Source: Oscillospiraceae bacterium
GTDB lineage: Bacteria > Bacillota > Clostridia > Oscillospirales > Ruminococcaceae
Direction: 5' to 3'
DNA: 64,000 bases
NCBI GenBank assembly: GCA_017521325.1
Contig: JAFXCV010000075.1
Span: forward strand, 62,001-126,000
The stretch's first letter is position 1. Each line of letters starts with the position of its first letter. A program made the translations under genes and the position numbers. A model generated the notes under the pieces. The model ran no database searches, was not told where the DNA came from, and was given only the letters and a program-made list of their open reading frames with translations. Shown here in pieces: positions 9,775 through 30,008 of this stretch.

Positions 9775-10214
9775 CAAAATCCGAAAAGGCTCTGGAGCTG
9801 TTTGCAAGCGGCTTCAACTGCTCACAGGCAGTGCTGACAGCATTTGCACCCGATTTCGGACTTGACGAAAAGCTTGCGTTAATGCTTGGTACGCAGTTCG
9901 GCGGCGGTGCAAGAAATGCAGAAATGTGCGGGGCGGTCTCGGGAGCACTGATGGTTCTGGGACTGAAATACGGGCATTATCAGTCAGACAATACGGAACA
10001 GAAATCCCGTGCATACGCCATTGCTGTGGAATACACAAAGCGTTTCAAGGAACAGAATGGTTCGATTGTCTGCCGTGATCTGTTGGGATACGACCTGACA
10101 AATCCCGAAGAAGCGGCTTGTATCAAGGAGAGAAACCTGTTCGGTGATATCTGCCCGAAAATGATTCAAAGCGCAGTTGAACTGCTCGAAAGCATCCTTG
10201 CTGAATATGAATGA
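9771..10214 (+). CDS. C_GCAxxG_C_C family protein
   Basis: 147-residue redox-type protein named after its cysteine pattern, often found with ars or transporter genes; its biochemical role is not established. The pattern is visible: 'FNCSQAVL' (Cys near residue 17), 'MCGAVSGALMVLG' (Cys-Gly-Ala-Val-Ser-Gly, near 48), 'SIVCRDLLGYD', 'AACIKERN' and 'DICPKMI'. Cytoplasmic, with no signal peptide. It is translationally coupled to the ArsR-like regulator, implying metal or oxyanion response. Confidence 0.88.
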   Translation: MTKSEKALELFASGFNCSQAVLTAFAPDFGLDEKLALMLGTQFGGGARNAEMCGAVSGALMVLGLKYGHYQSDNTEQKSRAYAIAVEYTKRFKEQNGSIVCRDLLGYDLTNPEEAACIKERNLFGDICPKMIQSAVELLESILAEYE

Positions 10215-10259
10215 AAACAGCCGTGTGAATGCACGGCTGCCTCTTGGTGTCACATTCTC

Positions 10260-10451
10260 ATGGGATGCAATGTGACTTGCCCTTATATGCCCGATACGGA
10301 GCAGTTCAACTGGGGACTTGACGACCCGACAGGGCAGAGTGACGAGTATTTCATCGAAACGATCAACGCCATTGAGAATAAGGTGCTTGCACTGAAGGAA
10401 TATTTGCTGAATGGCAAAGCCGCATGCCGGGAACACCCCCAAAACGCTTGA
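10260..10451 (+). pseudogene. Remnant of an arsenate reductase (LMW phosphatase type), C-terminal part only
   Basis: 63 codons matching the C-terminal half of ArsC-like low-molecular-weight phosphatase proteins. 'MGCNVTCPYMP' is the 'TMGC..CPxxP' loop, 'WGLDDPTGQSDEYFIETI' is the family's 'DWGLDDPTGKSDEEF' segment, and a C-terminal helix follows. The N-terminal P-loop half with the catalytic Cys is absent. Upstream in frame there is only about 15 codons before a stop at 10212-10214. No ribosome site precedes the ATG. Probably a dead fragment of an ars operon headed by the ArsR-like gene. It could be translated as a stand-alone peptide, which I think unlikely. Confidence 0.6.
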
Positions 10452-10466
10452 CTTCTTGCGGAATCA

Positions 10467-10510
10467 AAGCCGTGAAGGTTCTCCAACCGAGAATTTTCAC
10501 GGCTTTTTTC
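10467..10510 (+). terminator. Terminator after the arsenic-type locus
   Basis: Stem AAGCCGTGAA (10467-10476) / TTCACGGCTT (10496-10505) with a 19-base loop, then TTTTTTC. Confidence 0.85.
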
Positions 10511-10590
10511 TTTGAGAGATACTGTCTGATACCAATTCTTGCGAGAATGCCCTGTGCAGAAAAGTCCCTAAAAAACAGCGGATTTGTTTA

Positions 10591-10619
10591 TTGACAAAAT
10601 TTCGGGAATCATGTATAAT
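10591..10619 (+). promoter_or_regulatory. Consensus sigma-A promoter of the LRR/scaffoldin-like gene
   Basis: TTGACA (10591-10596), exactly 17 bases, TATAAT (10614-10619). The start codon is about 205 bases downstream, so the leader is long and contains the repeat element at 10671-10804. Confidence 0.85.
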
Positions 10620-10670
10620 AAAGAGGATTGAATCAACAAACAGTAATTTTGGAGTCAGAAAATATTACTG

Positions 10671-10804
10671 CGGCAATTAAAAAGGTTTCAGGGGTAGCAA
10701 TCCAAGAAATGCCCCCACCCCAACCCCTCCCCGAGGGGAGGGGCTATACACGGAGGGTACTGCGTACCCTCCACCCGCAAAAGGCGTTCGCCTTTTAATT
10801 GCCG
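10671..10804. repeat. MITE-like repeat element (copy A)
   Basis: 134-base element bounded by inverted ends CGGCAATTAAAA (10671-10682) and its complement (10793-10804). Inside are three hairpins: CCCCTCCCC/GGGGAGGGG (10724-10743), GGAGGGTAC/GTACCCTCC (about 10752-10772) and AAAAGGCG/CGCCTTTT (about 10778-10796). The first two hairpins and their order recur near 31.0 and 55.2 kb. It has no coding capacity. It sits in the 5' leader of the LRR gene. Confidence 0.7.
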
Positions 10805-10828
10805 GATTAATAATAAGGAGGAACAGGA

Positions 10829-13800
10829 ATGAATTTCAGAAAAATGACCGCAGCAGTCCTTGCCGTGCTGATTGCAGGCGGCGGCTGGATGCCGATGCTG
10901 CAGGACAGCATGTCCGTGCAGCACATTTCCGTGCATGCTGCCGAGCAGGAGGGCGTGACGCTGACAGTTTCCGCAGACGGCGAACTGACCACAACGCATG
11001 TCAATGACGCAGTGGCAGCACTTGGATGCGCAAAAAGCGAAATCAAAAATGTCGTGATCGAGGGAAATGTCACTTCCATCGGCGACAATGCCTTCTCGTG
11101 GTGCGTGAGCATCGCTTCCGTCACCTTCCCCGATACCGTGAAAAAAATCGGCAGCAACGCCTTTTTCTACTGCACGGGCATCAAGGAGCTTACCCTCCCC
11201 GAAGGTCTGGAGAGCATCGGCGGCGATGCCTTCAATAAATGCACGGGGCTGACTGCGATCAATATTCCCGATGGCGTGACAAGCATCGGAAAACAGGCGT
11301 TTACGGGATGCAGCGCACTTGCGGAGATCACCATCCCCGAAACTGTGACCGAAATCGGTGCATTTGCCTTCAACGCAACCCCTTGGCTCAAGGCGCAGCA
11401 GGAAGAGAATGCGCTCGTCATTGTTAACGGTCTGCTCGTTGACGGCAGAACCGCATCGGGCGATGTCACCGTTCCCGATGGCGTGACCGAAATCTGCGAC
11501 AGTGCCTTTACTTACTGTACGGCACTGACTTCCGTCAAGCTTTCCGATACGGTGATTTCCATCGGGAACAGTGCATTTTCAGGCTGTGCAGAGCTTGCGG
11601 AATTCGACGCAGCAGGCGCTTTGCAGCGCATCGGCAGCAATGCCTTTTCAAAATCCGGTCTGACCAAGCTCACCATTCCGGAAAGTGTGGTGCAGGTGGG
11701 GGAGGACGCATTTGCCGAAACTCCGCTTCTGGAAACGGAAACGAGCGAGGATGCTCCCACTGTCATCGGGCATCTTTTTGTCAAGGCACAGGCATGCACG
11801 GACGAGTACGAAATCCCCGAGAATGTGACCGTCATCTGCGACGGTGCGTTCCGTTCCATGAGTGAAATGACGGGCGTTGTGATTCCGAATGGCGTGAAAA
11901 CCATCGGTGCATCCGCATTTGAGGGCTGCTATGCGCTTTCCTCCGTCACCATCCCCGACAGCGTGTCGGAGATCGGCGAGCGTGCGTTCTACACCTGTTC
12001 GGCACTTGCGGAAATCACACTCCCCAAGGGGCTGACTGCCATGCGCAGATCGGTTTTCGACTATACACAGATTACAGAAATCAAGCTCCACAGGGGCGTG
12101 ACATCCATTGAAAGCGGCGCATTATCGGGCTGCGGCTATCTGAGGAAGGCAACCATCCCTGACAGCGTGACCTTCATTGCCGAGGATGCGTTCTCAAGCT
12201 TTGTGACCATCTGCGGCGTGGCAGGTTCAGAAGCGGAAAATTATGCCAAGAAATATGGCATGACCTTCATTCCTGTATCGGAAACGGAATTTTCTGCAAT
12301 GATCCTCGGTGATATGAACGGTGACGGAAATGTGGACGAAGCCGACGCTGTCATCATTCTCTCCGATTATGTCTGCACTTCCATCGGAAAAAGCAGCAGC
12401 TTTACCGACTACCAGAAGCAGTATGCCGATGTCAATGCCGACGGTAATGTTGATGCATATGATGCCTACCTCATCCATGCCTTTGTCAAGGCAGGGGAGA
12501 AGGACTTTGCGGAATTTGCAGCCGCTGCGAAAACTAAGACCCCCGATACGGCAAATGCAGGCTATTCCGACGAGGAGCTTGCAGATGCAAAAACTCCGAC
12601 CCTGACGCTTTCCAAGACGGAAGTCGCAGCCGAAATCGCCAAGAAAGATGGTGTTCCCGTGGAAATCCGCTTTGACGATGCCGGTATCATGTGGGAAGCA
12701 ATGGGCTTCCACCTGTATTGCGGTTCAAGCTTGAAACCCGTGATGGATGAGGATGGAAAGCCTGCTGTTTCATGCGAAGCTGACGTAGAAATGCAGACGG
12801 CATACGATGAAACAAACGGCAGCCTTTTCATCACGCTCCTCAATCCCAATGGCGTGAGCCTTGCGGATACGCCCATCATGCTCGGTTTTGTTATTCCCGA
12901 TGCAGCCCCGAACGTTGTCTACAACCTCGACCTGATCTACCGCAGCGGTGATATCTTCACGGAGGAAACGGGTGAGAACCTCAGCCACGCAGCCCTTTTC
13001 ACAAATGGCCTGAAGAATGGCAGTATTACCATCAGTGCCGTAGAACTGACAACGGGCGACCTGAACGGCGACGGCATCATCGACAGCAGTGATGCATCCC
13101 TCATTCTCCGCCACTATGCCAATATTTCCATCGGTCTTGCGGGAGTACTGACGGACGAACAGCTCTCCTTTGCCGATGTCAACGGCGACGGCATTGTGGA
13201 TGCATTTGACGCACAGCTCATCATTTCCTATTATCTGCGTATCAATGCGGGCTTTGAGGAAACACTCGGGGAATACGCCGCAGCCTTTGCAGGGGAATTC
13301 CCCACAACAGCGGACGGCGGCTTTACGGATGAAGAAATTGCCGCAGCAGAAATTCCCTACACACTGTCCATCCCCGACAGAATGATCAATACCAATGCAC
13401 TTGCATCCCAGAAAACCTACAGCATCCCCGTGACATTCACGGGAGAAGGGGCTTGGGATGTGCTGAGCTTCCATATTGCCTATGATGAAAGACTGATGCC
13501 GGTTCTCGATGGCAGCGGCAATCCGCAGTATATCGGACTTGCCGACGGTCTGCAGCTCCACACCCGTATGGATGCTGAAACGCATACCATGTTCTTCACG
13601 CTCCTCAACCCCTCCGGCAAGGAGATCTACGGTGATCTGTTCTCTCTCTCCATGACACTGCCCGATGATGTAAAAGAGGGCGATTTCTTCGAAATTACGC
13701 CCATCTACCAGAGCGGCGATATCTTCCGAACTCAGACGCAGGAGCCCCTTGCGCATGCGTATCTGTTCACCTGCGGAAGAAAGGGCGGCGTGATCACCAT

Positions 13801-15160
13801 TGAAAATCCCCCCACTGCCACCACCACGGCCACGGAAACCACAGCAGTAACCACAACTACCACGACTACCATGACCACTACAGAACCTGCCGCAACCACA
13901 ACCTCTAAGAAGACGACCACCACGGCAACCACGACTTCCGAGAAGGCGACTACTACTGCAACCACGACTTCAAAGAAGGCGACCACTACTGCAACCACGA
14001 CTTCCAAGAAGACGACCACCACGGCAACCACGACTTCCAAGAAGGCGACTACCACGGCAACCACAACTTCCAAGAAGGCGACCACCACTGCAACCACGAC
14101 TTCCAAGAAGGCGACTACCACGGCAACCACGACTTCCAAGAAGGCGACCACCACTGCAACCACGACTTCCAAGAAGGTGACTACCACGGCAACCACGACG
14201 AGTAAGCAGGGAACCACCAATTCCATGAGCGTTACAACGACCACAACGATGGTGTATGCGACCACAGTGACATACACCACCACCAATCCCGCTTCGACCA
14301 CGCTCCCTGCGACCACGACCACGGTGTATGTGAGCGATACAACGGATTCCACCACCAAGGCGACGGAAACAACGGCTTCCACGACTTTAGAAACCACTAC
14401 GAGTGAAAAAACCACCACTTCTACGGTTTCTGAAACCACAGATACAGTAAAAACCACCGCTTCCACGGCAACTGAAACCACCGGATCGAAAGAAACCACG
14501 GTTTCCACGACTACAGAAACTACAGTTTCCACGACTGCGGAAACCACTGCATCAACGGAAACCACCACCACAAGACGCAGCGTTGCAGGCTACACCTACA
14601 TGATTGAAACGAGAGAGCCGCAATATTATTTTGCGGATGATGAAAACGAGCTGCTGATTGAGGAGCTGATCAAGCGAATCACACGCTATGCGAAATACAG
14701 TGATGGCAGCGTGTCCGAAAAGGGTGAGAAATTCGGGGATTTCACGGGTATGATCCTTAACGCCGCATCCCCCCGTGAGCTGTACGAAACGGGCAAGCAT
14801 GTGTACAGCCTTTCCATCACGATCCCGAGCGGATACGGCGAAACCACGATCGAGGATGCATGCAGCATTTTCATCGGTGTAAAGGGCGATGCGAATCTTG
14901 ACGGCGTGACGGATGCCAAGGATGCAGCGTCAATTCTGGTGTATGCTGCAGCTACGGGTGCCGGAACAGCCGAGCCGCTGTATTCGGAAACCGACGCACA
15001 GCTGGAAAGCTTTGCCTATTTCTTGGCGGATGTCAATGGTGAAGAGGAGAAGAATTCTCCGCTTGACGCCACCGATGCCGCCGCAATCCTGACATATGCC
15101 GCTGCCGCAGGCACCGGCGAAAAACCCGATTGGGATAAAATTCTCGGGAAAACAGAATGA
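10829..15160 (+). CDS. Giant secreted LRR protein with dockerin-like and cohesin-like modules (candidate scaffoldin)
   Basis: 1443 residues. Signal peptide to about residue 37. About 40-480 is a BspA-type leucine-rich repeat array ('TSIGDNAF..C', 'IPDGV' units). Then come dockerin-like 1 (about 490-560, 'GDMNGDGNVDEADA'/'ADVNADGNVDAYDA'), a beta-sandwich module (about 590-730), dockerin-like 2 (about 740-810, 'GDLNGDGIIDSSDA'/'ADVNGDGIVDAFDA') and a second beta-sandwich (about 845-985). Both sandwiches share 'SGDIF', an '..L.HA.LFT.G.K.G.I.I' ending and an 'xxFHxxY/C..L.PV' strand like Ruminococcus cohesins. A Thr-rich region (992-1247) holds ten 11-residue repeats. The protein ends with an unknown module (about 1250-1345) and dockerin-like 3 (1350-1443), whose two Ca loops are widely spaced. 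No LPxTG anchor. LRR and dockerin calls are firm; the cohesin call is by pattern only. Confidence 0.85.
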   Translation: MNFRKMTAAVLAVLIAGGGWMPMLQDSMSVQHISVHAAEQEGVTLTVSADGELTTTHVNDAVAALGCAKSEIKNVVIEGNVTSIGDNAFSWCVSIASVTFPDTVKKIGSNAFFYCTGIKELTLPEGLESIGGDAFNKCTGLTAINIPDGVTSIGKQAFTGCSALAEITIPETVTEIGAFAFNATPWLKAQQEENALVIVNGLLVDGRTASGDVTVPDGVTEICDSAFTYCTALTSVKLSDTVISIGNSAFSGCAELAEFDAAGALQRIGSNAFSKSGLTKLTIPESVVQVGEDAFAETPLLETETSEDAPTVIGHLFVKAQACTDEYEIPENVTVICDGAFRSMSEMTGVVIPNGVKTIGASAFEGCYALSSVTIPDSVSEIGERAFYTCSALAEITLPKGLTAMRRSVFDYTQITEIKLHRGVTSIESGALSGCGYLRKATIPDSVTFIAEDAFSSFVTICGVAGSEAENYAKKYGMTFIPVSETEFSAMILGDMNGDGNVDEADAVIILSDYVCTSIGKSSSFTDYQKQYADVNADGNVDAYDAYLIHAFVKAGEKDFAEFAAAAKTKTPDTANAGYSDEELADAKTPTLTLSKTEVAAEIAKKDGVPVEIRFDDAGIMWEAMGFHLYCGSSLKPVMDEDGKPAVSCEADVEMQTAYDETNGSLFITLLNPNGVSLADTPIMLGFVIPDAAPNVVYNLDLIYRSGDIFTEETGENLSHAALFTNGLKNGSITISAVELTTGDLNGDGIIDSSDASLILRHYANISIGLAGVLTDEQLSFADVNGDGIVDAFDAQLIISYYLRINAGFEETLGEYAAAFAGEFPTTADGGFTDEEIAAAEIPYTLSIPDRMINTNALASQKTYSIPVTFTGEGAWDVLSFHIAYDERLMPVLDGSGNPQYIGLADGLQLHTRMDAETHTMFFTLLNPSGKEIYGDLFSLSMTLPDDVKEGDFFEITPIYQSGDIFRTQTQEPLAHAYLFTCGRKGGVITIENPPTATTTATETTAVTTTTTTTMTTTEPAATTTSKKTTTTATTTSEKATTTATTTSKKATTTATTTSKKTTTTATTTSKKATTTATTTSKKATTTATTTSKKATTTATTTSKKATTTATTTSKKVTTTATTTSKQGTTNSMSVTTTTTMVYATTVTYTTTNPASTTLPATTTTVYVSDTTDSTTKATETTASTTLETTTSEKTTTSTVSETTDTVKTTASTATETTGSKETTVSTTTETTVSTTAETTASTETTTTRRSVAGYTYMIETREPQYYFADDENELLIEELIKRITRYAKYSDGSVSEKGEKFGDFTGMILNAASPRELYETGKHVYSLSITIPSGYGETTIEDACSIFIGVKGDANLDGVTDAKDAASILVYAAATGAGTAEPLYSETDAQLESFAYFLADVNGEEEKNSPLDATDAAAILTYAAAAGTGEKPDWDKILGKTE
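13892..14222 (+). repeat. 33-base tandem repeats inside the LRR gene
   Basis: About ten in-frame 33-base units encoding ATTTSKKATTT variants (SKK, SEK and SKQ versions), nearly identical at the DNA level, within a longer Thr codon tract. They form a Thr-rich spacer with regularly spaced Lys pairs. Such repeats change length easily by slippage or recombination. Confidence 0.9.
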
Positions 15161-15165
15161 TACAC

Positions 15166-15203
15166 AAACGGCGCATCCATTTCGGATGCGCCGTTTCTCT
15201 TTT
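15166..15203. terminator. Bidirectional terminator between LRR gene and pectate lyase gene
   Basis: Perfect stem AAACGGCGCATCC / GGATGCGCCGTTT (15166-15178 / 15184-15196) with T-rich tail CTCTTTTT on the plus strand. It lies between two convergent genes and can serve both. Confidence 0.9.
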
Positions 15204-15208
15204 TATAC

Positions 15209-17521
15209 TTACGCAAGCTTCAGCGTAATTTCCATTCCGAGAATGTACTTCGTCAATGCGATCACATCCGTTACCGTCACCGTGCCGTCACCATCAGTAT
15301 CTGCACATATTTCGGCATGATCGGACGGAAAACCGCCCAGCAGTCCCTTCTTCTGTGCTGCAAGGTCGAATGCATTGACAACATTGTCAAGCGTCACATC
15401 TCCCGGAATCAGAATTACAGGATCCGCAGGCTCTGCCGCAAATACCGTGTAGTTCACGCAGTAGCCCGACATGCCGTTTGCGCCGAGCGTCAGTGTTTCA
15501 CCGGCAGCAAGGGGCTTGCGGTAAAGATCATAGGTCACGCCGTTTGTATCATCCGCCGTGTCCGTCATCTTCTCCCAGTCCGTAATCCATGCAGGCAGTG
15601 GTGTGACTCTCTGGTCAAAGCCAACATAGACCTCCATATCCGCACCGGCGGTGAAGGTGACAATATCCCCCGTCGAGAATTTCGCATCGCATGCAGTGAT
15701 GAGTGCCTCAGCTCCTACAAGGTAGGAGGGGAGCGTCGTGTAGGTGAATTCACGGTCGCCGAACATCGGATCGCCCACCTGAATATCCGTATCCACACGC
15801 CAGCTTGCATGCGTCTTGTAGTCGAGAATGTTGACTTCGGTGAAGAGTTTGCCGCCCTCAATGACAATGTTTTCAAGCATGCCGACTGTGGGTGTTTCCA
15901 CATAGCCTGCCGAGGGCATGCCGGGCGTTTCAAAGGTCGCATAATGATAAGCGGAAGGCTGATTCTTTGCGCCGCTGTAGGTGCCGCAGTAATTCTTCGC
16001 AGCATCGGCACTCAGCGCCTTGTAGGTGTAATTGCCCGACGGACGCCATGTGCAGTTCTGTGCAAGACCTTCGATCTTTGTGCGCTTGCAGTTAATAAAA
16101 ATGGAACCTGTTTCCGCATAGGCGCCGGGACGTGAGGTCTGATCCCAGTCGCAGATGACATTGCCGCCATTTTCATAGTAGCAGCCCTCTGCGAAGACCT
16201 TGGATGCGGTGAATACGGTGTATGCCATGTTGAAATTGCCCACATAGTTGTTGAGCGAATGGAAGTATCCGTAGCGCATCAGACCCGGCGCTCTTGTGTA
16301 GGTGCGGTTGAAGCTGTTGCGGATGATGGACATGCGTGGGAAATTATTGTATTTGTTGAAGGAAGCATCATCATCGGACGGATAACCGAGGATCAGTCCG
16401 TACTGGTGCAGTCCGAAGCTGCTGTCGGAAACGGTGCAGTAATCCGCATCATAGCAGCAGGCAAAGAATTTGTCATAGTCCTCAAGCCCCGTGGATGCGG
16501 TGTTATAATTTGCATGTCCTGCAAAGGTGCAGTGATCGACCCACAGGTTCTTGCCGGACCCAAAATACACGACGATCGAGTCATTGCCGTTCGATTCGGA
16601 ATCATGCTGCAGCTCAAAATTGCGGATGATCACGTTGTTGCCCACACCTTTATTGGATGCAGTGCAGAACTGCACATTGTACAGCGTGTGCGCCGAGTAG
16701 CTGCCGATGATGGTCTTGTTGCTGTGCACATAGATTCTGCCGTCGGGACAGTAGAATCTTCCGCTGGAATCCTTGGCAAGGTTGCTGACTTTGAGGTTCT
16801 GCGTCACAACGATGGTGTAGGGTTCGTCCGCTGTAGCATATTTCTTCAGGTCGTCAAATGTGGAAACCTCCACCGTCTGACCGAGCAGACCGCCGATGTT
16901 GCCTGCCTTGACATTGCCCGTGTTGTCGTTCTGACAGTAGCCTGCAAAGCCCTCAAGTCCTGTGGAATTAAGCAGCCACTTCTGGTTGTCCGCACCGCTG
17001 AAGCTTGCAAGGCTGATGGAATCTGCCGCTGCATTGTAGGTCAGGGCAAGGTTTGGATTTTCATAATTGGTAATCTTGTAGTGCAGGTCGTTTCCATGCA
17101 CGTCCTTGGAAACGGCACTGACATACCAGTGCTGGGATTTGGCACTTTCGCTGCCGTAGATCACAACATCCGAGCCCTCGGAAACCGCATAGCCCATCGG
17201 GGTGATCAGTCTGCCGCTGCCCATGTTTGTGATCTTGAAGAAGCTGCCCACGGAGTCAGTTCCGACATAATCAAAACGCCAGTTTTCGTTCTGGTTTCCA
17301 TTTGTCGTCCAGGTGTTCAGTGCGGATTTGTCGGCAGTACCTGTGATGTTGAGGTTTCGTCCGTTGTCCGCTGTGGAAATGCGGACAAGCTGTACGGGGT
17401 AGTCTGTGGAGATCGCTGACACTTCCATGACAGGCTCCGCCGCAGGCAGAACCCCCGTCAGGCAGGCTGCGCCCAGGACGAATGCGGTTGCAAGACGCAG
17501 CAGTTTTTCTTTGAGTTTCAT
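15209..17521 (-). CDS. Pectate lyase (PL1) with ricin-type lectin domain and dockerin
   Basis: Secreted pectin-degrading enzyme of 770 residues, cleaving polygalacturonate by beta-elimination with Ca2+. Signal peptide to about residue 36. A ricin-B-like/CBM13 domain (about 38-190) has QxW-type repeats ('NQNENWRF', 'AKSQHWYV', 'DNQKWLL'). PL1 beta-helix domain at about 215-600: 'NVIIRNFELQHD', 'SGKNLWVDHCTF', 'DYDKFFACCYDADYCTVSDSSF' and the 'RNSFNRTYTRAPGLMRYGYFHSLNN' segment, which holds the catalytic Arg (about 405). The dockerin is C-terminal (about 705-770), with its repeat types in the opposite order to the GH95/CotH dockerins. The ATG at 17521 follows AGGAGG; an upstream in-frame start at 17560 has none. 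Convergent with the LRR gene; the large regulator lies directly upstream in the same direction. Confidence 0.93.
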   Translation of the reverse strand: MKLKEKLLRLATAFVLGAACLTGVLPAAEPVMEVSAISTDYPVQLVRISTADNGRNLNITGTADKSALNTWTTNGNQNENWRFDYVGTDSVGSFFKITNMGSGRLITPMGYAVSEGSDVVIYGSESAKSQHWYVSAVSKDVHGNDLHYKITNYENPNLALTYNAAADSISLASFSGADNQKWLLNSTGLEGFAGYCQNDNTGNVKAGNIGGLLGQTVEVSTFDDLKKYATADEPYTIVVTQNLKVSNLAKDSSGRFYCPDGRIYVHSNKTIIGSYSAHTLYNVQFCTASNKGVGNNVIIRNFELQHDSESNGNDSIVVYFGSGKNLWVDHCTFAGHANYNTASTGLEDYDKFFACCYDADYCTVSDSSFGLHQYGLILGYPSDDDASFNKYNNFPRMSIIRNSFNRTYTRAPGLMRYGYFHSLNNYVGNFNMAYTVFTASKVFAEGCYYENGGNVICDWDQTSRPGAYAETGSIFINCKRTKIEGLAQNCTWRPSGNYTYKALSADAAKNYCGTYSGAKNQPSAYHYATFETPGMPSAGYVETPTVGMLENIVIEGGKLFTEVNILDYKTHASWRVDTDIQVGDPMFGDREFTYTTLPSYLVGAEALITACDAKFSTGDIVTFTAGADMEVYVGFDQRVTPLPAWITDWEKMTDTADDTNGVTYDLYRKPLAAGETLTLGANGMSGYCVNYTVFAAEPADPVILIPGDVTLDNVVNAFDLAAQKKGLLGGFPSDHAEICADTDGDGTVTVTDVIALTKYILGMEITLKLA

Positions 17522-17664: not shown

Positions 17665-19875
17665 TCATCCCGATTTCTTCTTGTACTCCAGTGCCGTCAT
17701 GCCGTTTTTCTTTTTGAACAGCTTCATGAAATACGAAACATCCGTGTAACCGCATTTCTCTGCAATTTCGCTCACGCTCAGATGCGTGTTCTGCAGCAGA
17801 CGCTCGGCAAGGGAAATGCGTGCAAGTATCACATCCGCATTGAAGCTGATGCCGAGATTTTTCTTGTAGATATGCTGAAAATACGAGGTACTGATGCCCA
17901 TTTCCTGCGCCGAAGCCGATGCCTGCCATGCAAGCTGCGGCTCCTCGTAGATGCGGTACTGCAGCTCACGCAGCATCGCCCAGTAAGCGTCATTGCTCTC
18001 GCTGTGGCTGCTCCTGTAATCCTCCAGCTTCTTTTCCAGCTCCGAAAACATTCCCTCAATGGAGGTCTGCTCATCCGTCACAGCCGTGAAATGCGCAGAC
18101 GTCAGAGGAATGGAGAGTTCACGGTGCATTTCCAGCATTTTCAGGTTCGATCGTATCACATTGATCAGCTGCTGACCGGCAGCATCCGTTCCATCGCATT
18201 CTCCGATGATGACGAAGCTGTATTTTCCGATGTGCGCAGCAAGCTCCCTGCGCATGCAGGAAAGGTTGATTGCCTGTGAAAAGGAAATCATGATCTGTTT
18301 GACGGATTCCTCCCCGTGCTGCTCACGGAAACGCTGCATGCCGTCAATATAATACAGCACCGCATAATGCCGCTTGTTTTTGTCAAGCGTGGGAATCATC
18401 GCAGACAAGCCCTTTCTGCTGTAAAGGCCCGTGAGGATGTCACGTTCCGAGAGCTGCTGGATCTTCTGCTGCAAATAGGCTTCATAGGTCAGTGTTCGAA
18501 TCTTTTCAATGGAATTTGCCGCAATCTGGCAGAATTCTCCATAGTGCTTTTCAAATTCCAGACTGTCATCCAGAAAGCTTCGCACGCAGTAGCCAAAGCT
18601 CCTGTCAAGGTAGTGCAGCGGCGTGCAGATACAGGTCATCGGCTGCCCATAGGTATCGGGAATCAGCTCTGCAAGCGTAAAATCACGCTTTGTGCCGAGC
18701 GTAACGCCGTCCATCCTTGACAGCACGCAGCGCATCGTATCTGTGTAGCCCTCCCTGCGGAAACGCTCGGGATGCGCATAATCGCCCTCCCAGTCCGTAC
18801 ACAGACAGACGTGGAAATTACTCGTTTCGTCCAGAAGATAGAGGTTTTGCGCAATAATGCCGATGCATTCGTCAAGGGATGTGACCTGATTCATCGTGGA
18901 GGAATAGCTGCTCTGCAGGTAGAGGGCATTTGTCAGCGATTCGTCCAGACGCTTCTGGTTCTGCATTGCATTTTCCGAAAGAAACGTCCTGCAGCCGCAG
19001 GTCGTGCCGATGCGCAGCGCAGGCTCTGCCATGCAGCTGATGGGAACCGGTTCATCGCCCATCAGCATGCCGAGCATGCAGACCGCATCCACGGCATTTT
19101 CAAGGGAAGTGCCGCCGAAGGTTGTCAGAAGCGGCTGGAACATTTCAATATCGGGATTTCCGTCATAGCCGCCTACGGCAATGTCCTCGGGAACTCTGAT
19201 GCCGTGAATGGACAGGGAAAGACTGAGCTGCAGTGCCATGTAATCGTTGCCGCAGAGGATTGCCTGCGGACGTCTGAGCGTGCCGTCTGCGATTTTCTTT
19301 GCAAATTCCTTTGCGTAGATGATCCAGTAATCGCCGAAAAAGACATGCTCGGGACGGAAGGGGATGCCGTGCTTTTCAAGTGCTGCGGCAAAGCCACGGA
19401 TTCTTCGTTTTGTGTGGATATCCTCCTGCGGACCGACCAGACAATACAGCTCACGCATGCCGTGGACTTCAATAAAATGCTCGGTCAATGCCATGAAATT
19501 CGCTTCATCGTTCTGCATGCAGGATACAAAACGGCTGCTGTCATAGTCAAGGGCAACCACGGGGATGCCCCTGCACTGCAGGCGAGCTTCAATTTCATCG
19601 GCAAGCGTTCTGTTGAAAAACGAGCCGTAATCCATGATGGCACCGTCCATATGGAGGGAATCGAGCAGGGAATAGATGTTTTCTTCGCCCGCAATGTGAC
19701 TGCTGACGTTGTTGTAGTTGACAAAATGTGTGAGAATGATCAGGTCGTACCCGAGCTGCGCTGCCTGTCGGGACATGATGCGGATCATGTCGATGTGGAA
19801 CTGCCGTGCAAGCTCCGTTGTGATCAGTACAATTCGTTTTTTAATGGATGCCACCTCCTTTTTGGTAATGTGCAT
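17665..19875 (-). CDS. Multidomain regulator: LacI-type sensor, GAF-like, degenerate GGDEF, AraC DNA-binding
   Basis: Cytoplasmic one-component transcription regulator, up to 736 residues. About 1-310 is a periplasmic-binding-like sugar-sensing domain of LacI/GalR type ('AILCGNDYMALQL', 'VGGYDGNPDIEMFQPLLTT'). About 330-470 is GAF-like. About 480-620 has a GGDEF fold start ('ERDILTGLYSRKGL'), but the signature is replaced by 'IGKYSF', so it is not a cyclase. About 630-736 is an AraC HTH pair ('AQEMGISTSYFQHIYKK', 'VSEIAEKCGYTDVSYFMKLFKKKNGMT'). It probably senses a sugar and controls nearby fibre genes (GH5 divergent, PL1 downstream). Start: the ATG at 19875 lies only about 11 bases after the -10 box. 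An AAAGGAGG sits 8 bases before an in-frame ATT at 19845, which may be the real start. Confidence 0.9.
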   Translation of the reverse strand: MHITKKEVASIKKRIVLITTELARQFHIDMIRIMSRQAAQLGYDLIILTHFVNYNNVSSHIAGEENIYSLLDSLHMDGAIMDYGSFFNRTLADEIEARLQCRGIPVVALDYDSSRFVSCMQNDEANFMALTEHFIEVHGMRELYCLVGPQEDIHTKRRIRGFAAALEKHGIPFRPEHVFFGDYWIIYAKEFAKKIADGTLRRPQAILCGNDYMALQLSLSLSIHGIRVPEDIAVGGYDGNPDIEMFQPLLTTFGGTSLENAVDAVCMLGMLMGDEPVPISCMAEPALRIGTTCGCRTFLSENAMQNQKRLDESLTNALYLQSSYSSTMNQVTSLDECIGIIAQNLYLLDETSNFHVCLCTDWEGDYAHPERFRREGYTDTMRCVLSRMDGVTLGTKRDFTLAELIPDTYGQPMTCICTPLHYLDRSFGYCVRSFLDDSLEFEKHYGEFCQIAANSIEKIRTLTYEAYLQQKIQQLSERDILTGLYSRKGLSAMIPTLDKNKRHYAVLYYIDGMQRFREQHGEESVKQIMISFSQAINLSCMRRELAAHIGKYSFVIIGECDGTDAAGQQLINVIRSNLKMLEMHRELSIPLTSAHFTAVTDEQTSIEGMFSELEKKLEDYRSSHSESNDAYWAMLRELQYRIYEEPQLAWQASASAQEMGISTSYFQHIYKKNLGISFNADVILARISLAERLLQNTHLSVSEIAEKCGYTDVSYFMKLFKKKNGMTALEYKKKSG

Positions 19876-29156: not shown

Positions 29157-29194
29157 AAAAGATGCTGCTGCATTTTCATGCAGCAGCATCTTTT
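29157..29194. terminator. Bidirectional terminator between convergent genes
   Basis: 16-base perfect stem AAAAGATGCTGCTGCA / TGCAGCAGCATCTTTT (29157-29172 / 29179-29194), with T-runs readable on both strands. Confidence 0.93.
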
Positions 29195-30008
29195 ATGATT
29201 CCATATCATGTCCGGCCAGTACACACTTGGTAAATAGATCGTTGTACCGCAGATTCTTTGTCGGGATGACCACAAGCCCTGCACGCATGGATACAGGGAA
29301 GGTGTACTCACCGGATTTCACAGTTTCGCCGTTATGCGCAAGTATTTTATCAATGATCGCCTGTGCATCCTCTTTCTTGTCAAAATCCGTAATCAGCACA
29401 AATTCATCACCGCCGATACGGATCGGGAGCATGGTTTCATCCGATTCCATGTCAATTCTTCGCAGGCACTCGGCAATAGCAATATCCCCTGCCGCTGATC
29501 CGTAGGTTTCATTGACATACATCAGCCGCACCATGTCAAAGCAGATCACATATTTTCCGCTGTGTTCCTTGATAAAATCATAGAGATGTGACACGTCAAA
29601 CATTTTTTTGCTATACATAATATCATTCCCTTCTCCGTCCGTGATCGGCAGGGATTCACTGAATTTCGGGAAAATCTCCGAAAACCGCCTGCTTTTCCGA
29701 AATTCCGAAGGCGATACGCCCCACAGCCGCCGGAATGCACGGGTGAATACCTCATGCGACCGGTAGTCGTATTTCAGCGCAATATCCAGAATCGTCGCAT
29801 CTGTTTCAAGAAGCTCCTTTGCTGCTGCACTCAATTTACGGCGTGCGATATAATCCCCCACACCGATGTGAAAGACGCAGCGGAACAGCTTCTGAAGATT
29901 CGACAGAGAATAGCCGCATTTTTTCGCACAAAGCTCCGGTGAAAGCGGCTGTGTGAGATTTTCCTCTATGAATTCCAAAACCACGGACAAAATTGTAAAT
30001 TTGTTCAT
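29193..30008 (-). CDS. AraC-type regulator fused to a GGDEF domain
   Basis: 271-residue cytoplasmic protein with the DNA-binding part first. AraC HTH pair at about 8-105: 'SPELCAKKCGYSLSNLQKLFRCVFHIGVGDYI' and 'ILDIALKYDYRSHEVFTRAFRRLWGVSPSEFRK'. A short GGDEF domain at about 130-265 keeps 'RIGGDEFVLI' (around 198). The usual 'DxDxFKxxND' is altered ('FDMVRLMYVNETYG'), so diguanylate cyclase activity is uncertain; nucleotide sensing is also possible. No signal or membrane segment. The promoter region carries two adjoining palindromes, implying autoregulation. Its last bases overlap the shared terminator. Targets unknown; the CotH/GH95 cluster is nearest. Confidence 0.9.
   Translation of the reverse strand: MNKFTILSVVLEFIEENLTQPLSPELCAKKCGYSLSNLQKLFRCVFHIGVGDYIARRKLSAAAKELLETDATILDIALKYDYRSHEVFTRAFRRLWGVSPSEFRKSRRFSEIFPKFSESLPITDGEGNDIMYSKKMFDVSHLYDFIKEHSGKYVICFDMVRLMYVNETYGSAAGDIAIAECLRRIDMESDETMLPIRIGGDEFVLITDFDKKEDAQAIIDKILAHNGETVKSGEYTFPVSMRAGLVVIPTKNLRYNDLFTKCVLAGHDMES

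Follow-up and report, generated by a model that had tools for sequence, protein, structure and literature searches.

The 64,000-nucleotide stretch of contig JAFXCV010000075.1 (positions 62,001 to 126,000, assembly GCA_017521325.1, Oscillospiraceae bacterium), here called the window, contains a single reading frame for a protein of 1443 amino acids at positions 10829 to 15160 on the forward strand, in agreement with the initial annotation of this DNA. The encoded protein carries an array of leucine-rich repeats (LRRs), two dockerin-cohesin (Doc-Coh) units, a threonine-rich linker, and an X-module followed by a third dockerin, in the order LRR-(Doc-Coh)2-Thr-X-Doc. It is a new arrangement of known modules, and with at least one cohesin and at least one dockerin on one chain it has the composition by which adaptor scaffoldins are defined (PMC11557425). 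That cohesins and dockerins are both present on one chain also supports the scaffold or adaptor role that the initial annotation had suggested. The literature basis consists of parts of PMC5301203, PMC2930009, PMC4081043, PMC7456326, PMC12484212, PMC5590126, PMC11557425, and PMC4300822, and statements about published systems refer to those parts.

All parts of the gene and protein given here with window positions are on the forward strand. The protein starts with a signal-peptide-like N-terminus (positions 10829 to 10939, residues about 1 to 37, read by eye), which is followed by a BspA-type LRR array at positions 11036 to 12208 (residues about 70 to 460). The array was recognized by PF13306 (LRR_5) in 3 stretches with an E-value of 5.9e-89, as expected of a BspA-like LRR adhesin, and the repeat pattern [IVLM][GCARE]..AF occurs in it at 13 sites. 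Dockerins were identified in two stretches in the Pfam scan (Dockerin_1, E 9.5e-23), and the predicted combination of an LRR array with dockerin-like units was thereby borne out. No cohesin was recognized in the Pfam scan of the protein, the NCBIfam scan yielded LRR-type matches alone, all far below the cut-offs, and neither scan identified a catalytic family. The Thr-rich linker is located at positions 13808 to 14569 (residues about 994 to 1247); 136 of the 258 residues from 993 to 1250 are threonines, with 8 TTTSKK units.

The two cohesin modules, which we refer to as CohA (positions 12545 to 13039, residues 573 to 737) and CohB (positions 13307 to 13807, residues 827 to 993), were 35% identical over 135 amino acids (78.6 bits, E 4e-24), with 51 identical columns in the alignment, while the top score after shuffling the CohB sequence 1000 times was 21.9 bits. 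Both retained the SGDIF motif and the L.HA.LFT.G.K.G.I.I ending noted earlier. In sequence searches against solved cohesins, CohA matched 2zf9 (E 2.3e-7), and CohB matched 2zf9 (E 2.4e-6), 8ajy_A (E 1.5e-5), and 4iu2_A (E 1.7e-5). The predicted structure of CohA is that of a cohesin, and its top fold matches were the ScaE and ScaG cohesins of Ruminococcus flavefaciens, which it matched over the full length with 20% to 26% identity over the module (2zf9, 4iu2, 4n2o, 4wkz). A sandwich closest to the ScaE and ScaG structures, together with homology to characterized members, is the mark of the ScaE/ScaG-like (type III) cohesins. We therefore place CohA in this group on its sequence and model, and CohB on its sequence. 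The initial annotation had named a non-cohesin fold of both sandwiches as a result that would overturn its cohesin-like reading, and had proposed the PF00963 profile for the check. The reading survived for CohA by its model and for CohB by sequence alone, but the profile proved unsuitable: it recognized neither sandwich and gave nothing at E<=1 for the protein or its locus, and since the fold of CohA was matched all the same, PF00963 is not a measure of the cohesin fold.

Doc1 (positions 12302 to 12502, residues 492 to 558) and Doc2 (positions 13049 to 13243, residues 741 to 805) match PF00404 and contain the two calcium-loop-helix repeats of a dockerin, with both calcium loops intact. The top solved match of Doc1 was the ScaH dockerin 8ajy_B (E 2.1e-6), which has been solved with a ScaE cohesin. 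The same dockerin was the third match of Doc2 (E 2.9e-9), after 2 double-dockerin serine protease constructs, 8x39 and 8x3a (E 4.6e-10). The genome contained 126 dockerin matches at E<=0.1, and 43 matches at E<=0.001 to a ScaH/ScaI-type dockerin profile made from five sequences, among which Doc2 ranked 3rd, Doc1 19th, and Doc3, the C-terminal dockerin, 36th. None of the 5 window dockerins on the GH9, PL1, GH5, GH95, and CotH proteins was among these 43 matches. The GH9, GH95, and PL1 partners put forward in the initial annotation are thus not favored, these dockerins being of another class than Doc1 to Doc3.

The parent proteins were scanned for 19 of the 43 dockerins, and 3 more are those of the window protein itself. 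LRR_5 was identified in 10 of the scanned parents and peptidase C1 (papain-like) in 2, while transglutaminase, CAP, cell-wall hydrolase, GDSL lipase, and NPCBM were found once each, and 2 parents had no other Pfam family. The GDSL lipase parent could be an esterase. None of the 19 contained a glycoside hydrolase or polysaccharide lyase family, and at least ten LRR proteins of the genome carry one related dockerin class. In 2 proteins with LRR_5 and a C-terminal dockerin (L137:557-2092 and L140:218-1714), the middle part appeared cysteine-peptidase-like by eye and was unnamed by Pfam. The Gly-Arg recognition dyads of R. flavefaciens group-4a dockerins (PMC5301203) were absent from Doc1, Doc2, and Doc3; the residues read at these positions were Glu-Ala and Ala-Tyr in Doc1, Ser-Ser and Ala-Phe in Doc2, and Ala-Lys and Ala-Thr in Doc3.

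The C-terminal part of the protein consists of an X-module (positions 14582 to 14875, residues about 1252 to 1349) and Doc3 (positions 14879 to 15157, residues 1351 to 1443). A profile of 9 X-dockerins from the genome matched the CttA X-dockerin 4iu2_B with an E-value of 6.4e-12 over positions 8 to 178 of 189, whereas the window sequence alone gave a match of 2.5e-5 with partial coverage. Doc3 contains one canonical calcium loop and an insertion in the second repeat, as in the CttA X-dockerin. An X-module directly before a dockerin with inserts, with homology to CttA, is characteristic of the CttA/ScaB kind, and the sequence thus identifies the C-terminus as an X-dockerin dyad. The initial annotation was correct about the third dockerin-like unit, but the module that it had called unknown is an X-module by profile. 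Pfam CttA_N covers the homologous region in 2 related proteins, P0125 and P0128, and the X-module of the window protein was below its reach in the Pfam scan. P0125 has 885 amino acids and an X-dockerin with 54% identity; its N-terminal half resembled three tandem cohesin-like sandwiches by eye and was Pfam-silent.

The genome contained 10 X-dockerin matches, Doc3 included, at E<=1e-15, the most among 38 genomes of the genus; the others, many of which are incomplete, had 1 to 6. For R. champanellensis, an X-module is reported on a single dockerin (PMC7456326). The X-dockerins of the genome (L011-L020) were of two kinds according to residue 11 of the first repeat, which was Lys in the window protein, C48, C18, and C72:9036, and hydrophobic in C22, C72:29270, C74, C2, C50, and C58. 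The 2 kinds may represent two anchor specificities, and were not separated in the X-dockerin tree.

Several cohesin proteins are encoded in the genome besides the window protein. At one locus (L024:3588-6397, G000:C2), an X-dockerin gene (L024:4499-6397, with a PF18244 CttA_N match below the cut-off) is adjacent to a divergent cohesin gene. The same gene order, cttA-scaE, is found in the sca cluster of R. flavefaciens (PMC4081043), and the genome therefore likely encodes an anchor for the X-dockerins. The ScaE-like protein encoded by the adjacent gene (L024:3588-4478, minus strand) has 297 amino acids, a signal-peptide-like start, a Thr-rich stretch, and a sortase-like tail that ends SPATG-hydrophobic-KKKED. 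Its middle part is a divergent cohesin (PDB 10uy, E 2.8e-5) with 46% identity to L079 of another genome of the genus. Elsewhere, a frame that resembles a lipoprotein and has two PF00963 stretches ends in a stop codon (L030:5658-6038, G000:C9); this standalone cohesin looks broken or mis-assembled.

The gene for the 1443-residue protein is preceded by a ribosome-binding-site-like AAGGAGG (positions 10815 to 10821, 7 nucleotides before the ATG) and by a sigma-70-type promoter match, TTGACA-17-TATAAT, at positions 10591 to 10619 with 12 of 12 consensus positions, and is followed by an intrinsic-terminator-like site at positions 15166 to 15196 with a 13-pair stem and a T-rich tail. On the basis of these three features the gene looks like its own transcription unit. 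In positions 10200 to 15300, 5 promoter-like sites were observed, compared with a mean of 3.5 in shuffled sequences. It is flanked by a C_GCAxxG_C_C gene on one side and by a convergent pectate lyase-dockerin gene on the other, and GH9-, GH5-, GH95-, and CotH-dockerin genes are located nearby; the host bacterium is likely fibre-degrading. Two regulators with an AraC-type helix-turn-helix and a GGDEF domain are encoded near the dockerin-enzyme genes (window positions 17665 to 19875 and 29193 to 30008), the first of which additionally contains a periplasmic-binding-protein domain.

The protein cluster comprises 9 member sequences. With a two-row profile of CohA and CohB, only 1 of the 38 genomes of the genus, the own genome, was found, with weak matches in five others (1.4e-4 to 0.009). 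Matches at E<=1e-4 to a cohesin profile of five rows, A2, occurred in 29 of 396 genomes of the family and were strongest in genus g20, whose proteins include sortase-tailed ScaE-like, Coh-Doc, and standalone cohesin proteins. The profile also matched one further protein of the own genome (C6, 7.6e-8) and cohesins in seven other genomes of the genus (3.5e-8 to 7.0e-5), most of the latter being covered for only the initial two thirds of the module. LRRs were found on cohesin proteins in L097 (G338), with the order LRR-Thr-Coh-Doc, and in L082 (G042), with the order Coh-LRR-Doc and with LRR and dockerin below the Pfam cut-offs. The 20 X-dockerin parents examined in the genus were mostly chosen for long frames, and 17 of them were examined by motif alone; LRR arrays were present in 3, by repeat motifs and Pfam confirmation, and no A2-type (ScaE-type) cohesin was found in these. 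The 3 proteins, L161 (G030, 1671 amino acids), L166 (G025, 1714), and L165 (G010, 1016), together with P0128 (900), which was retrieved in a protein search, reads as LRR-Thr-X-Doc, and likewise showed no ScaE-type cohesin, may be LRR adhesins anchored in the manner of CttA.

A second protein with the order LRR-(Doc-Coh)2-Thr-X-Doc was found neither among the open reading frames examined, which were a subset of the A2 and X-dockerin matches, nor in the literature, in a search that did not extend to supplements and many journals. The full module order, which the initial annotation did not recognize, thus had no counterpart in these searches, but the protein is not without kin, as shown by ScaI (LRR-Coh-Doc), L097, and the LRR-X-dockerin proteins.

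We consider it probable that the protein is an adaptor scaffoldin, likely at the cell surface, in which the X-dockerin fits into a wall-anchored cohesin and the two ScaE-type cohesins collect dockerin-bearing proteins. The most likely form, by analogy with R. flavefaciens, is one in which X-Doc3 sits in ScaE and the Doc-Coh units gather proteins with ScaH-class dockerins. After export by the signal-peptide-like start, X-Doc3 would bind the ScaE-like anchor of the genome, in the way that ScaE of R. flavefaciens is bound by CttA and ScaB, and the Thr-rich linker would let the rest of the protein reach outward. CohA and CohB may bind the dockerin class found on the LRR proteins, the peptidases, and the window protein itself (Doc1 and Doc2), because group-4 dockerins are bound by ScaE and ScaG, the nearest relatives with solved structures. 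Doc1 and Doc2 could cross-link to further cohesins, and the outermost LRRs would contact a putative ligand on fibre, host surface, or partner cell. In strain FD-1, group-4 and group-2 dockerins bind ScaE, and one group-2 LRR dockerin binds the ScaE and ScaH cohesins (PMC5301203).

Several observations weigh against this interpretation. A tree of 30 cohesins joined CohA and CohB as a sister pair (98/93), with a flag for the meeting of two long branches, and did not place them among ScaE, ScaG, ScaF/H, or ScaI; the cohesin of the ScaI-like L097 was not their sister, and deep support was weak. As the architecture was found in one genome, conservation is no argument for function. The parent scan covered 19 of the 43 class matches besides the three of the window protein; the other 21 include a Coh-Doc protein, truncated frames, and the majority of the weakest matches. 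The AlphaFold model of the X-dockerin region was poor (predicted local distance difference test score 57.6) and its fold comparison was set aside, and the Gly-Arg of the R. flavefaciens CttA dockerin is replaced in Doc3. Anchoring by the known pairing is not assured, since the ScaE-like protein of the genome carries a divergent cohesin, which scored 9 bits against profile A2 and 12 bits against profile A4 with all filters off and had no Pfam cohesin match, and since the tail of this protein, at 12.7 bits, stayed below the cut-off of PF00746, the sortase-signal profile. Moreover, LRR proteins do not by rule sit on ScaE-type cohesins, since in FD-1 the partners of three group 1a/1b LRR dockerins are ScaA/ScaB cohesins, and that of one LRR-peptidase dockerin is ScaC (PMC5301203).

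The solved pair of a ScaE cohesin and a ScaH dockerin is mirrored twice within the chain, and the ScaH dockerin of FD-1 recognizes its own cohesin (PMC5301203), as would suit a self-assembling adhesin in which Doc1 and Doc2 bind CohA and CohB of the next copy to form an LRR-coated fibre or sheet held by X-Doc3. However, the dockerins and cohesins could instead pair intramolecularly, and Doc1 and Doc2 are not orphans: their ranks among the 43 class matches imply that many alternative partners are available, and we regard self-assembly as improbable. We are similarly doubtful of a CttA-like substrate adhesin whose function would lie in the LRRs, with the cohesin-like modules reduced to spacers that have lost dockerin binding. 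The long branches of CohA and CohB and the LRR-X-dockerin proteins L161, L166, L165, and P0128 are in line with such a role, but the cohesin core is retained in both copies, the fold of CohA is matched over its full length, and LRRs are paired with cohesins also in ScaI and L097.

The location of the gene among those for dockerin-bearing GH9, PL1, GH5, and GH95 enzymes would suggest that CohA and CohB carry these enzymes. This seems very improbable given that the window enzymes have dockerins of another class, and that the FD-1 ScaE cohesin took group-2 and group-4 dockerins and none of the group-1, -3, and -6 dockerins with a tabulated result (PMC5301203). In a bolder extension of the adaptor interpretation, unlikely in our judgment, a cellulosome-type cell would carry a second, non-enzymatic scaffold with the window protein as its hub. 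The two ScaE-type cohesins would receive the dockerins of LRR proteins and peptidases and, through Doc1 and Doc2, those of its own neighbors, to form a self-propagating LRR adhesin lattice on the anchors that also hold the fibre-degrading complex.

In the FD-1 microarray, most LRR dockerins bound no tested cohesin (PMC5301203). For LRR and peptidase dockerins without a socket, the window protein is a candidate, and its cohesins are of a kind that binds such dockerins in other systems. The combination of LRRs, a shared dockerin class, and two cohesins on one chain makes what was a vague question answerable with a small matrix of binding tests. Should LRR or peptidase proteins indeed be held by these cohesins, the cell would have two parallel assemblies on shared cell-wall anchors, of which the cellulosome would be one. 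The alternating Doc-Coh order also offers a ready-made part for designer scaffolds.

Among the proteins compared, L161, L166, L165, and P0128 share the BspA LRR array and the X-dockerin, and L161, L166, and P0128 also have a Thr-rich linker, but no internal Doc-Coh units were seen in them. The C-terminal dyad is shared with CttA of R. flavefaciens (CBM-CBM-X-Doc, where CBM is a carbohydrate-binding module), whose X-dockerin binds the ScaE and ScaG cohesins (structures 4IU3, 4WKZ) and serves in anchoring through ScaE (PMC5301203), whereas the window protein has LRRs and Doc-Coh units in place of the CBMs and a replaced Gly-Arg dyad. CohA resembles the anchoring cohesin ScaE and the standalone cohesin ScaG in fold and sequence, but the window cohesins are internal, duplicated, and located on a dockerin-bearing chain without a sortase-like tail. 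The adaptor ScaH similarly combines a cohesin with a dockerin that resembles Doc1 and Doc2, although as a single Coh-Doc pair without LRRs or an X-module. ScaI of FD-1 likewise has LRRs, cohesin, and dockerin on one chain, and its group-4a dockerin binds the ScaE cohesin (PMC5301203). However, ScaI has one cohesin and one C-terminal dockerin, with no X-module listed, whereas the window protein has two Doc-Coh units, in which the dockerins precede the cohesins, plus an X-dockerin.

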